Source: Lentisphaerae bacterium GWF2_49_21 (GTDB lineage: Bacteria > Verrucomicrobiota > Lentisphaeria > Victivallales > GWF2-50-93). From it: a stretch of 64,000 nt of DNA. A program made the position numbers and the translations under genes. The stretch spans positions 1 through 64,000 of the forward strand of contig MHBH01000073.1 of the NCBI GenBank assembly GCA_001804805.1. Reading direction: 5' to 3'. This document shows positions 47,815-55,987 of the stretch, piece by piece (within the stretch, counting starts at the first letter, position 1; each line of letters begins with the position of its first letter). Below the pieces are notes generated by a model that was not told the origin of the DNA, did no database searches, and saw nothing but the letters and a program-made list of their open reading frames with translations.

Positions 47815-48045
47815 ATGATAACAACAGTTACAAGTCGTGGACAGACAGTTGTTCCAGCAAGGATACGACATTTCTTCAAGATTAAGAAGAATTCCCGGAT
47901 TGACTGGGTAATGGAAAATAATTCCATAAAGGTCTATCCTCTTCCGGACGACACCATAAAAGCTGCAAGGGGGATGTTTGCAGGAGGGGCACCTCTGAAC
48001 GATGTCCTGCTTGAGGAAAGAAGAAAAGAGAGGATCCGGAAATGA
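47815..48045 (+). CDS. AbrB/MazE-like antitoxin (VapB type)
   Basis: A 76-residue protein with an N-terminal swapped-hairpin SpoVT/AbrB DNA-binding domain (ITTVTSRGQTVVPARIRHFF, IDWVMENNSIKVYPL) and a basic C-terminal tail (LLEERRKERIRK) that would contact the toxin. It overlaps the PIN toxin gene (ATGA at 48042-48045) and precedes it, the usual antitoxin-toxin order. It should repress its own promoter as a complex. Confidence 0.87.
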   Translation: MITTVTSRGQTVVPARIRHFFKIKKNSRIDWVMENNSIKVYPLPDDTIKAARGMFAGGAPLNDVLLEERRKERIRK

Positions 48046-48467
48046 GCGGAAATATCCTCTTGGATACATCAGCTATCCTTTGTCTAGTCTTAGATGAGGA
48101 AGGGGCGGGAACTGTTGAAAGATCCCTTTTGTCCGCTAAATCAGGGCATTGCATGCTTTTTCTCAGCTTTGCCTCGATTACTGAATTGAAATACATTATC
48201 TGGCGCCAGCGGTCTGAAGCTGATGCCGATAAACTAATGAAGCTGATGAAGACATGGAATCTGGAGATTATCTATCCTGACGAGGAATTATGTCTGCTTG
48301 CGGCAAAATTGAAGAAGGAGTACCCCCTCTCTTTTGCTGATGCTTTCATTGCTGCGACTGGAATAATGAACAAACTTGTTCTTATGCATAAGGATCCGGA
48401 ATATGATCCACTTGGAGAAATCCTTGAAATGCAGAGACTTCCTTATAAAAAAACAAAGGCGATTTAA
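48042..48467 (+). CDS. PIN-domain ribonuclease toxin (VapC type)
   Basis: A 141-residue PIN domain with the acidic residues expected for metal-dependent RNA cleavage: LLDTSAILCLV (Asp8), a Glu in ITELKY and SFADAFIAA (two Asp-type residues near 108). VapC toxins cut tRNA or rRNA. The start overlaps the antitoxin by 4 nt. It sits at the left edge of the polysaccharide locus. Confidence 0.88.
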   Translation: MSGNILLDTSAILCLVLDEEGAGTVERSLLSAKSGHCMLFLSFASITELKYIIWRQRSEADADKLMKLMKTWNLEIIYPDEELCLLAAKLKKEYPLSFADAFIAATGIMNKLVLMHKDPEYDPLGEILEMQRLPYKKTKAI

Positions 48468-50553: not shown

Positions 50554-50600
50554 TTGACAATCAATAGCTTATATGGTATCGTTACTTCAGGTAACGTTAC
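50554..50600 (+). promoter_or_regulatory. Candidate promoter with nested GTTAC palindromes
   Basis: TTGACA at 50554-50559 and TATCGT 17 bp later give a fair -35/-10 pair. The same CTTGACAATCAATA string occurs at 54933. Immediately downstream GTTAC-TTCAG-GTAAC and GTAACGTTAC form overlapping palindromes, a possible operator. The next gene starts at 50833, with a 134-bp element in between. Confidence 0.4.
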
Positions 50601-50656
50601 TTATAGAATGCATAAGCGACGGGGCGAAGCGCGGATACCTTGCAATAAAAACTTCA

Positions 50657-50832: not shown

Positions 50833-51864
50833 ATGGCATCAATTGAAAAAAACGAACTTCTCGAGCTTGAGATCCTCAAGCATGTCGAGACTTCCCCGCG
50901 TCTGAACAACCGCATGGCCGCTTCCAAGCTCGGATGCAGTGTAAAACTTGCCCATGTGCTATTGTCAAAGATGGTCGACCGCGGACTTCTCCATGTCAAG
51001 AAACACCACTCCAGGCGCTGGGATTATTTCCTTACTCCTGGCGGAATTGCCGAAAAAGCCAGGATCACCTATGAATTCATTGATTTCTCAATGCAGTTCT
51101 ACCATGAGGCAAGACGTGAAAGTTCCAGGGTCTGCAGGGATATAGCTGAATCCGGAAAGGAAACAGTCGCATTTCTCGGCGATGGCGAACTTGCAGAAAT
51201 AGCATATCTGGGAGTGAAAGAGTGGGGCCTTGAGTTAAAGGAAGTTTTTGGAGAGGAGAAGGACAATTTTCTCGGTCTGAAGGTTCAGCCATATGATTCA
51301 GCGGATTCCTCCAGCTCGGATGCTCTCATTGTGTGCCTTTATGACAAGACCATCCCCATGAGAGCCGACTACCTGCCGAACGGAATGATGAAAAATGACA
51401 AGATGGTCTGGGTGTTCTCTGGAAAGTATTACAACGAACATGGAATGAAAAGGAAAGACACCTTGAATGCCGGAGATATCAGGACGGTGGTTTCTTCAGC
51501 TTTGGCAAAGGAGAATGACATAAGAATCTGCTTCCTCTACGGATCTTCCTCCAATGGAAGACTTACTTCCTCGAGCGATATAGATGTGGCCGTTGCGGCG
51601 GCCGGGCTGTTAGAACATGAAAGACTGCTCGAACTGGCGGCAATGATTTCAATATCAGCAGGAAGAGAAGTCGATCTTGTCGATCTCCATTCAGTCCACG
51701 GGGAAATATTGAAGCAGATTATTTCCAGAGGAAGGCCTGTTTTTATCAAGGACAAAAACATGTATGCAGATATAATTGACAGGATGCTCTTCAACGAGGC
51801 CGATATGATTCCCAATTACAATATGATACTGTCAAAGAGGAGGCAGGTTTTTATCAATGGATAA
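50833..51864 (+). CDS. Three-domain protein: wHTH + Rossmann-like sensor + MntA-type nucleotidyltransferase (antitoxin-like)
   Basis: A 343-residue protein. Residues 1-75 form a winged HTH of the EPS-associated MarR-like type (LNNRMAASKLGCSVKLAHVL, YFLTPGGIAEKARITYEF). About 108-200 is a Rossmann-like domain (VAFLGDGELAEIAYLGVKEW). The C-terminal 230-343 is a minimal nucleotidyltransferase with GSSSNGRLTSSSDIDVAV (G-S-x10-D-x-D, near 237). The next gene is a HepT-type toxin overlapping by 8 nt, so this is a MntA-like antitoxin fused to a polysaccharide-locus regulator. MntA inactivates HepT by AMPylation. I know of wHTH-Rossmann proteins and of MntA, but not this three-part fusion. Confidence 0.82.
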   Translation: MASIEKNELLELEILKHVETSPRLNNRMAASKLGCSVKLAHVLLSKMVDRGLLHVKKHHSRRWDYFLTPGGIAEKARITYEFIDFSMQFYHEARRESSRVCRDIAESGKETVAFLGDGELAEIAYLGVKEWGLELKEVFGEEKDNFLGLKVQPYDSADSSSSDALIVCLYDKTIPMRADYLPNGMMKNDKMVWVFSGKYYNEHGMKRKDTLNAGDIRTVVSSALAKENDIRICFLYGSSSNGRLTSSSDIDVAVAAAGLLEHERLLELAAMISISAGREVDLVDLHSVHGEILKQIISRGRPVFIKDKNMYADIIDRMLFNEADMIPNYNMILSKRRQVFING

Positions 51865-52306
51865 TATGCTGATAATGAACAAGATAGAAAGTTTACGCCG
51901 CTGCATCGGAAGGATCAGGGAGAAGACACCTGAAACTTCTGCACAACTTGAATCCGATCTTGACCTCCAGGATATTGTCACTGTCAATCTCGAAAGGGCC
52001 GTACAAGCGTCTGTGGATATTGCAGCCCACATTATAGCGGACATTGAATCACCAGCCCCCGAAACGATGTCTGAGGCATTTGTCATAATTGAGAAGAAGG
52101 GATTCATTTCCAAGGACGTGTCCGCAAGAATGCAAAAGGCTGTCGCGTTCAGGAATATAGCGGTACACGCATATCAGAAGATGAACTGGAACATTGTCCA
52201 TAAGATTGCAACTGAAGGAATCAGGGATTTCGTTGAATTCACAAGGCAGATCTCGGAGAAACTTGAAAATGCTGCCGACCGACGACCGACAACTGAAAAC
52301 AGATAA
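51857..52306 (+). CDS. HepT-type HEPN ribonuclease toxin
   Basis: A 149-residue all-helical HEPN protein. The catalytic RNase motif R-x4-H-x-Y is exact: RNIAVHAY with Arg99, His104 and Tyr106. HepT toxins cleave RNA and are inactivated by AMPylation of the Tyr by MntA; the nucleotidyltransferase domain encoded just upstream is the expected partner. The frame overlaps its upstream gene by 8 nt. The last residues ([11 protein letters not shown]) are read from a CCGACGACCGACAACTG-type spacer repeat, so the native C-terminus has been altered. Confidence 0.88.
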
Positions 52307-52314
52307 GGATAATA

Positions 52315-53319
52315 ATGAGAAAAGCTCTTATCACAGGTATTACCGGACAAGATGGTTCGTATCTGACGGAACTACTTCTCAAGAAAGGGTATGAAGTCTA
52401 CGGAATCATCAGGAGATCCTCCTCCTTCAATACTGAGAGAATAAACCATCTCTACAAGGATCCGCACGAGAAACCCAATCTCAAGCTCCTTTACGGTGAT
52501 CTGAATGACTCCAGCAGTCTTGCAGAAATTCTTCACTCGTTAAAACCCAACGAGATTTACAATCTTGGTGCACAGAGCCATGTAAGAGTATCCTTTGATA
52601 TTCCGGAATATACCGGGGAGATAACTGGAATGGGCACTCTCAGGATGCTTGAGGCAATCCGCAGGACCGGTTGCAAGGCCCGTTTCTACCAGGCAAGCAG
52701 CAGCGAGATGTTCGGGAAAGTCGCTGAAACCCCTCAGACGGAAAAAACTCCTTTCTATCCGAGAAGCCCCTATGGTGCCGCAAAGGTGTTTTCACACTGG
52801 CTGACAGTCAATTACAGGGAAAGCTATGGCATTTTCGCGTGCAGTGGAATACTTTTCAACCATGAGTCTCCCCGGCGCGGCGAAACATTTGTCACCAGGA
52901 AAATAACAAGGGCGGCCACACGTATCAAGCTTGGTCTCCAGAACAAGCTTTATCTCGGTAACTTGGATGCGAAACGCGACTGGGGTTATGCCGGCGACTT
53001 TGTCGAAGCCATGTGGCTCATGCTCCAGGCTGACAAGCCCGATGACTTCGTTATCTCCACCGGAGAAACGCATTCGATAAAGGATTTCCTTGATGAGACT
53101 TTCGGACTGCTTGATATCGACTGGAAGAAATATGTTGAAAAAGATCCAAGATATTACAGGCCTGCTGAAGTCGATATTCTTCTCGGTGACAGCTCAAAGG
53201 CCAGGAAGAAACTCAAATGGAAGCCCAAGGTCAACTTCAAACAGCTGGTGAAAATGATGGTCGACAATGATCTTGATCTGGCGAAGAAAGAGAAGCTTCT
53301 GCAGGATCATAGGCAGTAG
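52315..53319 (+). CDS. gmd: GDP-mannose 4,6-dehydratase
   Basis: A 334-residue SDR enzyme that converts GDP-mannose to GDP-4-keto-6-deoxymannose. [17 protein letters not shown] binds [14 protein letters not shown] holds Ser/Thr, Glu and [12 protein letters not shown] gives Tyr-x3-Lys. [19 protein letters not shown] is the signature of the family. The next enzyme of the pathway, GDP-L-fucose synthase, is at 53913-54854, so GDP-fucose is the expected product. AAGGATA precedes the ATG. Confidence 0.96.
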
Positions 53320-53388: not shown

Positions 53389-53607
53389 ATGATTAAAAAC
53401 TACCATCTGGTCAAAGAAGCGGAAGCAGAATATCAGTCCAAGCATAAGCCTTCCCTTGAGGAAAGGTTCAAGCTTTTGAATGACATGTATGTCTTTTCAA
53501 AGGAGTTTGAAAAAGAAGGATTACCTCCGGAGGAAACTTCCCACGTTAAAATGCTGATCAGGCTTGCGAATACATTCAAAAAAATAGGGGAATTCAAGAA
53601 TGATTGA
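53389..53607 (+). CDS. Small protein upstream of a broken nucleotidyltransferase gene (possible antitoxin partner)
   Basis: A 72-residue helical, charged protein (EAEAEYQSKHKPSLEERFKL, FSKEFEKEGLPPEETSHVKM). It is not recognised as a named family. Its stop overlaps the start of a damaged nucleotidyltransferase-like gene by 8 nt, an arrangement seen for two-gene AbiEii-like or MNT-type modules. It may be the partner or antitoxin. Confidence 0.5.
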   Translation: MIKNYHLVKEAEAEYQSKHKPSLEERFKLLNDMYVFSKEFEKEGLPPEETSHVKMLIRLANTFKKIGEFKND

Positions 53608-53852: not shown

Positions 53853-53912
53853 TAACGTGTGGTAAAATAGTTGTCTTTTCCAAGTCCGTGTAAGTCTGTG
53901 GCAAAAAATCTT
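53853..53912. repeat. Spacer repeat (CCACTAACGTGTGGT type)
   Basis: The segment with CCACTAACGTGTGGTAAAAT and then TCCAAGTCCGTGTAAGTCTG precedes the fucose synthase gene. CCACTAACGTG recurs at 56592. Because it is read open in the frame of the gene, the extra N-terminal residues before ATG 53913 are not trusted. Confidence 0.5.
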
Positions 53913-54854
53913 ATGGGTATGAACAAAAATTCCAAAATCTACATCGCAGGGCACACCGGCATGGTCGGTTCAGCCATTTATAGGTTGTTGAAATCAAAAG
54001 GCTTCCGTAACCTAGTTGTTCGTACAAGCAAACAACTTGATCTACGTGACACTCAAAAAGTCATAAGGTTCTTCAAGGCTGAAAAACCTTATTATGTTTT
54101 TTTCTGTGCAGGCAGGGTAGGTGGCATCAAGGCAAACAATGAGAAGCCGGCGGATTTCCTGTACGACAATATGATGATGGCGTCAAATATCATTCATCAG
54201 TCATATATTAATAAAGTAAGGAAACTTTGCTTCCTCGGAAGTTCATGCATATATCCGCGCGAATGCTCTCAGCCCATGAAGGAGGAATATCTTCTTACGG
54301 GACCGCTTGAACCCACGAATGAAGGATATGCCGTTGCGAAGATCGCAGGATATAAGCTTGCCTATTATTATGCCAAGCAGCATGGGATGAACACAATATC
54401 GATCATGCCATGCAACCTTTACGGGGAAAACGATCATTTCGACCTGAAAAAGTCCCATGTCCTTTCGTCTCTGGTAAAAAGATTTGTAGACGCTGCCGAC
54501 AAGGGCAGACCCGAGGTAAAGCTATGGGGGACTGGCAGTGCGAGAAGGGAATTCATGAATGTCGATGATTTTGCCGAAGCTGCTCTCCTCTTGATGGGGA
54601 AAAGGACAGATCCTGAAATAATAAATGTTGGAACTGGAACGGATCTCACCATCAAGGAACTTGCCCTGAAAATTGCGAAATCCGCAGGATACAAGGGTAA
54701 AATCCTCTGGGACAGTTCCATGCCTGACGGAATGCCCCGGAAATGCCTGGACATCTCAAAAATCAGACGACTCGGTTTCAAACCGCAAATCACCCTCGAT
54801 GTCGGAATCTCGCAAATGATAAGTGAATATAAACGGATGGCAGAAGTCAGATGA
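53913..54854 (+). CDS. fcl: GDP-L-fucose synthase
   Basis: A 313-residue bifunctional epimerase-reductase that makes GDP-L-fucose from the Gmd product. IAGHTGMVGSAIYRLL binds NADPH, FLGSSCIYPRECSQPM is the highly conserved Ser-containing segment and YAVAKIAGYK gives Tyr-x3-Lys. NLYGENDHFDL is family-typical. Two start codons, ATG 53913 and ATG 53919, are close; the upstream frame is repeat sequence. Two TGCG-N5-CGCA palindromes lie inside. Confidence 0.95.
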   Translation: MGMNKNSKIYIAGHTGMVGSAIYRLLKSKGFRNLVVRTSKQLDLRDTQKVIRFFKAEKPYYVFFCAGRVGGIKANNEKPADFLYDNMMMASNIIHQSYINKVRKLCFLGSSCIYPRECSQPMKEEYLLTGPLEPTNEGYAVAKIAGYKLAYYYAKQHGMNTISIMPCNLYGENDHFDLKKSHVLSSLVKRFVDAADKGRPEVKLWGTGSARREFMNVDDFAEAALLLMGKRTDPEIINVGTGTDLTIKELALKIAKSAGYKGKILWDSSMPDGMPRKCLDISKIRRLGFKPQITLDVGISQMISEYKRMAEVR

Positions 54855-55302: not shown

Positions 55303-55614
55303 ATGGTAAGAATAAATCAAATAAAGAATTATGTGAAGAGGATATCAGAGGAATTTCACCCTCAAAAGGTTATTCTTTTTGGATCATACGCCTATGGGAA
55401 GCCAACTTCAGACTCTGATGTTGACTTGCTTGTGGTGATGGAAGATATCAATCATATGGAGAGGCCCTCTCTTGAAATTCGCAGACGGATAAAAGCTCCA
55501 TTCCCTCTTGATTTGTTAGTGAAATCGCCAAGCCATATAAGGAAGCGTCTGAAGATGCGTGATTATTTCATAAGAGATGTCTTTAAAAAGGGTGTTGTCT
55601 TATATGAGAGATGA
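55303..55614 (+). CDS. Minimal nucleotidyltransferase (MNT, MntA-type antitoxin)
   Basis: A 103-residue nucleotidyltransferase of the smallest type: VILFGSYAYGKPTSDSDVDL carries G-S-x9-10-D-x-D, and the second Asp in LDLLV follows. Members pair with HEPN proteins; most act as antitoxins by modifying the toxin. Its 3' end overlaps the HEPN gene by 11 nt. Confidence 0.88.
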   Translation: MVRINQIKNYVKRISEEFHPQKVILFGSYAYGKPTSDSDVDLLVVMEDINHMERPSLEIRRRIKAPFPLDLLVKSPSHIRKRLKMRDYFIRDVFKKGVVLYER

Positions 55615-55987
55615 AACTCTAGAATGGATTCAGAAGGCGGAAGGAGATTTTGCAAGCGCTACAAGGGAAATACGCGCTAGGAAGAACAGGAACGAGGATT
55701 CTGCCTGTTTCCATTGCCAACAGTGCATTGAAAAATATCTGAAGGCGATGCTTGTTGAGAAAAACATTCAGTTCCCAAAGACGCATGATCTTGGAATTTT
55801 ACTTGATTTGCTCTTGAAGTCTAGCGCAGACATGGAAATATTCCGTGATGGAATGGCCCTTCTAACGGATTACGCTGTTGTCTTCAGATATCCGGGAGAA
55901 TCTGCAACAAAAGAGCAATCTCGCGAATCATATCTCAAATGCATCGAAATACGTGCATCTATTAGGGACAAGCTGAAACTTTCTTAA
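55604..55987 (+). CDS. HEPN-domain protein (toxin partner)
   Basis: A 127-residue helical HEPN-domain protein (ETLEWIQKAEGDFASATREI, SACFHCQQCIEKYLKAMLVE), with the FHCQQ-EKYLKA signature of the PF05168-type HEPN group. HEPN proteins are often RNases; the strict R-x4-6-H motif is present only as R-x7-H here, so activity is uncertain. It forms a unit with the MNT gene upstream. ATG 55604 is used; the frame from 55577 lies inside the partner gene. Confidence 0.85.
   Translation: MRDETLEWIQKAEGDFASATREIRARKNRNEDSACFHCQQCIEKYLKAMLVEKNIQFPKTHDLGILLDLLLKSSADMEIFRDGMALLTDYAVVFRYPGESATKEQSRESYLKCIEIRASIRDKLKLS

Follow-up and report, generated by a model that had tools for sequence, protein, structure and literature searches.

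The fusion gene, its HepT partner and the surrounding locus

The window, a 64,000-nt stretch of a Lentisphaeria-type metagenome-assembled genome (MAG) that is 95% complete, carries a polysaccharide locus in which a single reading frame encodes a regulator and an MntA-type antitoxin domain and is followed directly by the toxin gene hepT. The features discussed below are as follows.

50554..50559, + strand: -35 hexamer TTGACA of the predicted promoter, kept in four genus members
50577..50582, + strand: -10 hexamer TATCGT, overlapping the predicted operator; TATNGT stands there in nearly all relatives
50581..50600, + strand: predicted operator GTTACTTCAGGTAACGTTAC, a perfect copy of a class-wide footprint
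50611..50630, + strand: conserved leader element CATAAGCGACGGGGCGAAGC, also found before other polysaccharide operons
50833..51864, + strand: regulator-MntA fusion gene, 343 aa (open reading frame list)
50833..51036, + strand: MarR/EPS-type winged helix-turn-helix (HTH), residues 1-68
51037-51150, + strand: long connecting helix of 38 residues, residues 69-106 (AlphaFold model)
51160..51417, + strand: Rossmann-like domain, residues 110-195 (AlphaFold topology, weak profile matches, family alignment)
51475..51861, + strand: MntA adenylyltransferase domain, residues 215-343
51541-51585, + strand: GSx10DxD sequence motif of the MntA domain
51857..52306, + strand: hepT, RNase toxin
52151-52174, + strand: R-x4-H-x-Y motif of HepT
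52315..53319, + strand: gmd, GDP-mannose 4,6-dehydratase-like gene (open reading frame; same order in genus and family)
53871..54854, + strand: fcl, GDP-L-fucose synthase-like gene (open reading frame; conserved order)

Both open reading frames that an earlier note on this DNA had described were found at the same positions, and the three-part architecture that it had read in the upstream product (regulator-type HTH, Rossmann-like domain, nucleotidyltransferase) was upheld by domain searches and a structural model that agree with one another, the Rossmann part being model-based. Residues 10-104 matched TIGR04176 (MarR_EPS) with an E-value of 1e-14 and 54-56 bits against a curated cut-off of 88, which makes the N-terminus a relative of MarR_EPS and not a formal member; the same profile was matched by all 14 aligned relatives of the regulator part. 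An AlphaFold model of residues 1-205 (mean pLDDT 76) comprised a winged HTH, the 38-residue helix, and a Rossmann-like sheet, with a beta-alpha-beta(-beta) arrangement at residues 90-160 (pLDDT 75-90), and a Foldseek search with this model returned MarR winged HTH structures first, with winged HTH plus Rossmann methyltransferases among the next matches. Profile searches with the middle part gave no significant Pfam or PDB sequence match and weak matches to PglD_N, NeuD, and Rex; the top PDB matches to the Rossmann part were designed helical proteins and were discarded. The domain's motif reads GDGELAE in the fusion and GxGxLAE across the family alignment, and 'Rossmann-like' seems a reasonable description of the modelled fold.

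The C-terminus matched NF047752 (MntA_antitoxin) over residues 224-325 with 71.7 bits (cut-off 60) and an E-value of 4e-20, as well as PF18765 (E 2e-16), and its residues G237-S238, D249, D251, and D281 align with the catalytic GSX10DXD motif and D71 of Shewanella oneidensis MntA (5yep_A), which gives all three catalytic Asp a counterpart. An AlphaFold model of the full-length fusion, built from a 4-row alignment, was weak in this half (pLDDT 57); despite that score, the sequence profiles leave little doubt about the identity of the predicted MntA (MNT) domain. HepT matched NF047751 with 134 bits (cut-off 60) and aligned to 5yep_B, and its exact R-x4-H-x-Y motif, as previously reported, places R99, H104, and Y106 on the catalytic residues R97, H102, and Y104 of SoHepT. 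The 8-nt overlap noted earlier between hepT and the upstream gene is ATGGATAA, and it does not vary among the four genus members; the genes thus stand adjacent, coupled, and antitoxin-first, as in type VII pairs.

The setting in a polysaccharide locus was likewise corroborated, with glycosyltransferase, epimerase, gmd, and fcl genes around the fusion gene. Because gmd starts 8 bp past the hepT stop in the window and hepT overlaps the fusion gene, the fusion, the toxin, and the GDP-fucose genes probably belong to a single autoregulated operon, and co-transcription of hepT and gmd in the window is likely; the hepT-gmd gap is 62-283 bp in the other three genus members, so co-transcription is uncertain there. 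The locus gathers many toxin-antitoxin-like genes. A PIN-domain protein gene (48042-48467) lies just upstream of the polysaccharide genes and is kept in G001 (L021 2664-3095), and a second, different MNT-HEPN pair (NTP_transf_2 plus HEPN PF05168) occupies 55303-55987, with 96% and 90% identity in G003. A 72-aa open reading frame at 53389-53607 has a homologue in G002 (L022 2064-2291) that overlaps a DUF6036/AbiEii-like nucleotidyltransferase gene, and the window copy, which has no such gene, is seemingly an orphan partner.

Predicted promoter and operator, and a leader element

Alignment of upstream regions within the genus yielded a predicted promoter of the form TTGACA-N17-TATCGT, with a spacing of N16 in one member. 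Over this promoter lies a conserved inverted repeat, GTTAC-N5-GTAAC, that begins inside the -10 box and together with an abutting palindrome GTAACGTTAC makes up the predicted operator. Upstream of the regulator genes of the class, the repeat was present in 28 of 41 regions (15 exact, 13 with one mismatch), compared with chance expectations from dinucleotide shuffles of 0.02 exact, 0.34 one-mismatch, and 0.36 in total; the count covers 41 of 42 regions, the remaining one being too short or weak to alter the result. TAT precedes nearly all of these sites, so that the -10 box reads TATNGT, and a further GTTAC often follows. The long exact motif occurred in 14 of 198 class genomes; the regulator is present in 13 of these 14 (Fisher p 6e-9), and the motif mostly lay just upstream of its gene. 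This class-wide footprint suggests that members of the family regulate their own genes, most simply by repression, and that the DNA target was retained in the fusion; the comparative evidence for such autoregulation through an operator at the regulator's own promoter is strong.

The earlier note had also proposed that the fused protein controls transcription of the surface-sugar genes. This stands in part: the operator signature at 50581 points to control of the operon that it heads, and no second close copy of the operator was found in the 64,000-nt window, the scan of the whole genome having returned this single site plus one match with two mismatches. In some other genomes, GTTAC-N5-GTAACGTTA also lies upstream of a nucleotidyltransferase-like gene in a polysaccharide locus (G004, L151) and of an unclassified gene (G432, L149), which suggests a regulator with a few extra targets there. 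In G130, in which the search did not find the regulator, the operator motif is present, and at G130:C1:370660-370770 (L144, L161) it and the element GACGGGGCGAAGC are about 100 bp from each other, one on each strand.

That second conserved element, GACGGGGCGAAGC, follows the operator by 10-30 nt and recurs before other polysaccharide genes. In Lentisphaeria the element, of the form (TGCATAAN)TGACGGGGCGAAGC, is sometimes preceded by a hairpin, and it precedes several polysaccharide genes (for a pseB-like dehydratase, a sugar dehydrogenase, an ABC permease, and a glycosyltransferase) at loci besides the window (L135-L141, L161-L163, L171, L174, L182, L185-L188). Exact matches numbered 31, against 8 for a reversed control, and some of them fall within open reading frames. 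This leader element looks like an ops/JUMPstart-like element. A second NusG was considered as its reader and rejected, the window genome holding a single NusG-family match, and an Rfam search returned nothing relevant.

Conservation, distribution and origin of the fusion

The full 343-residue fusion and hepT were present in all four sampled genomes of the genus, a group of environmental bacteria, with 73-80% identity, the named close relatives being Lentisphaerae bacterium GWF2_50_93, a GL140 MAG, and a MAG labelled Victivallis vadensis; an assembly or frameshift artefact is ruled out by its presence in four separate genomes. Each of the four genomes retains complete MntA and HepT motifs. Pairwise dN within the genus was 0.04-0.07 for the HTH, 0.03-0.20 for the Rossmann-like domain, 0.04-0.23 for the MNT domain, and 0.03-0.13 for HepT, with dS at or near saturation in most pairs, and all four are under purifying selection. 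The 18-residue hinge that connects the regulator to MntA (residues 205-222) is the fastest-evolving part of the protein and nearly unconstrained, with a dN of 0.25-0.66, a pattern more in keeping with domains on a loose tether than with tight allosteric coupling. Sequence comparison found no start codon in the linker common to the four genus members; ATG191, inside the Rossmann-like domain, is kept in all four, and a shorter internal product containing MntA may start there.

The HTH-Rossmann protein was found in 43 of 198 class genomes and, within a sample of 388 genomes of the phylum, is confined to class Lentisphaeria; outside the genus it is stand-alone and mostly 195-215 aa long. The survey of fusions beside HepT suggested by the earlier note placed fused MntA in this genus alone, since among the 388 phylum genomes it alone had MntA matches above cut-off in open frames longer than 300 aa. 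Other long MntA-like frames were set aside: L122-L124, L127, and L128 read as false 5' extensions or as the remnant of an unrelated nucleotidyltransferase, L125 had a HepT-like neighbour alone, and L126 gave no match. Beyond the phylum, the survey consisted of exact-pattern scans and plasmids: exact heptapeptide patterns, whose reach is close relatives, returned the same genus alone from the genomes of 84,980 species, plasmids yielded the regulator part alone, and viral contigs gave no match to the fusion.

These distributions bear on how the fusion arose. In the family members G004 and G007 the regulator lies upstream of gmd without MntA, and on a Chelatococcus plasmid the gene of a distant homologue (BOQ54_RS18870, 29% identity over 135 residues) shares 4 nt with gmd, fcl coming next. 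Elsewhere in the phylum, an mntA-hepT pair that stands on its own (L127) has an 8-nt overlap too, ATGGATGA, as would be expected if the module had been inserted whole. The simplest and most likely history is that a whole mntA-hepT module was inserted between the regulator and gmd and became fused in frame.

Other toxin-antitoxin-like modules take the same place behind the regulator in other genera, namely DUF6036-type nucleotidyltransferases (L023, L025, L028, L097), an RHH-PIN-like module (L027), and a Phd-PIN-like module (L117), those at L027, L028, L097, and L117 having been classed by eye from their sequences. At L023 (2162-3420, G007) the regulator carries a 52-residue C-terminal extension, YGFDLSLLDANLKKTPEQRI, and its gene is overlapped by 4 nt by a nucleotidyltransferase-like gene, with gmd after it. 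The extension matches a small gene that precedes the nucleotidyltransferase at L028 (68-1535, G019), with 58% identity over 36 residues, and is probably a second, independent fusion of the same regulator. The 72-aa frame at 53389-53607 of the window was considered as a relative of this fused partner and rejected, since the two gave no alignment.

The fusion might also be passive, both halves working as before and the tether having no regulatory meaning beyond the shared promoter, a reading to which we give a minor but appreciable chance. The fast-evolving linker and the unfused modules behind the regulator at L025, L027, L028, and L117, which make the site seem to accept inserts, speak for it. 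Against it, the two halves have not separated again in any of the four sampled species (73-80% identity), the linker holds no start codon common to them, and sharing an autorepressed promoter is itself a functional consequence.

Proposed mechanism and comparison with known systems

The reading that we favor, with moderate confidence, is that a mobile mntA-hepT pair landed behind the autorepressor of a GDP-fucose/polysaccharide operon and was fused to it, so that one protein represses the operon and AMPylates HepT. In this sequence of events, a type VII mntA-hepT module would have inserted directly downstream of the gene encoding the autorepressor of this GDP-fucose/surface-polysaccharide operon, and mntA would then have fused in frame to that gene. 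The winged HTH would then bind GTTAC-N5-GTAACGTTAC over the -10 box and repress the fusion gene, hepT, gmd, and probably more, and the MntA domain would add AMP to Tyr106 of newly made HepT, so that the RNase stays off. With repressor and antitoxin in one molecule, toxin supply and antitoxin level would be set by one feedback loop, and a cell that lost the gene would face both a derepressed operon and an unrestrained HepT, which would make it dependent on the locus. The architecture, its conservation, the catalytic motifs, the operator and promoter signature, and the gene order are observed; DNA binding, repression, AMPylation, co-transcription, and locus addiction we infer from sequence. That a single protein both controls expression of the operon and keeps the toxin off is probable.

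A ligand-gated toxin switch, the idea of the earlier note, goes further, in that the Rossmann-like domain would bind a nucleotide sugar (GDP-mannose, GDP-fucose) or NAD(P) and alter both DNA binding and MntA, with the corollary that a stalled sugar pathway releases HepT. The domain is conserved, with its GxGxLAE-type motif and weak similarity to PglD_N, NeuD, and Rex, and the order regulator-gmd-fcl is shared by Lentisphaeria and an alphaproteobacterium; however, the HTH-Rossmann family also heads operons without gmd (with a flippase, an ABC transporter, and others), and the hinge, being flexible and unconserved, speaks against a tight link to MntA. We consider such a switch unlikely, and slightly more so the full proposal, in which the polypeptide that represses the pathway operon also recognizes a nucleotide sugar from the GDP-fucose pathway and controls whether HepT is AMPylated. 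If true, a block in surface-sugar synthesis would derepress the operon and arm the RNase, making this a metabolite-gated type VII system that monitors the cell surface.

It is highly improbable that the MNT domain has been domesticated for another target (itself, RNA polymerase, or a sugar enzyme), leaving HepT a bystander or inactive. MNT/HEPN pairs have been exapted elsewhere into regulatory nucleotidyltransferases, in most cases losing the catalytic residues of the HEPN part, according to one survey (PMC3710099), whereas here the R-x4-H-x-Y motif of HepT is present in each of the four genomes, the protein is under constraint, and hepT still overlaps the MNT coding region.

Under the favored reading, a dedicated autorepressor with a readable operator would be joined to MntA, giving a predicted type VII antitoxin with a DNA-binding domain, and a toxin and antitoxin heading a surface-sugar operon would be a concrete example, open to experiment, of how a host regulatory circuit takes in a toxin pair. 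Through the class-wide operator, a family of polysaccharide regulators that seems not to have been described before likewise becomes accessible to direct tests.

Known MntA proteins are shorter than 150 aa and lack a DNA-binding domain, and MntA adds three AMPs to the HepT tyrosine (PMC7641770). The MntA of S. oneidensis (SO_3165) binds its own promoter with no recognised DNA-binding domain (PMC4621449), and Makarova et al. (2009) speculated on a DNA-binding partner acting in trans, which would make a three-component system (PMC2701414). MNT-HEPN fusions appear in the available part of Anantharaman et al. (2013), which has no HTH-MNT antitoxin beside HepT (PMC3710099). The earlier note knew of no system with a regulator-MntA fusion next to HepT, and we too found no description of this arrangement in the open literature, subscription papers and preprints lying outside the search.

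The pair resembles HepT/MntA type VII (SO_3166/SO_3165) in its RX4HXY and GSX10DXD motifs, antitoxin-first gene order, and aligned catalytic residues, but differs in that MntA makes up the last third of a 343-aa regulator for which an operator is predicted; we call it a variant because its antitoxin has three parts, whereas the usual, though not strictly defining, antitoxin is small (<150 aa) and single-domain. With TIGR04176 MarR_EPS it shares a similar winged HTH sequence and the polysaccharide-locus setting, but to the 105-aa model the Lentisphaeria family adds a Rossmann-like domain and this genus MntA as well. The Rex redox repressor (winged HTH plus Rossmann) has a comparable domain order, with no significant match to the regulator, one weak NCBIfam match (E 0.16) in one relative, and no place among the best 50 Foldseek matches. 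The stand-alone winged HTH-Rossmann regulators of Chelatococcus (BOQ54_RS18870) and the Lentisphaeria relatives have the same two domains, before gmd/fcl in Chelatococcus, and unlike the fusion locus they have neither MntA nor HepT.
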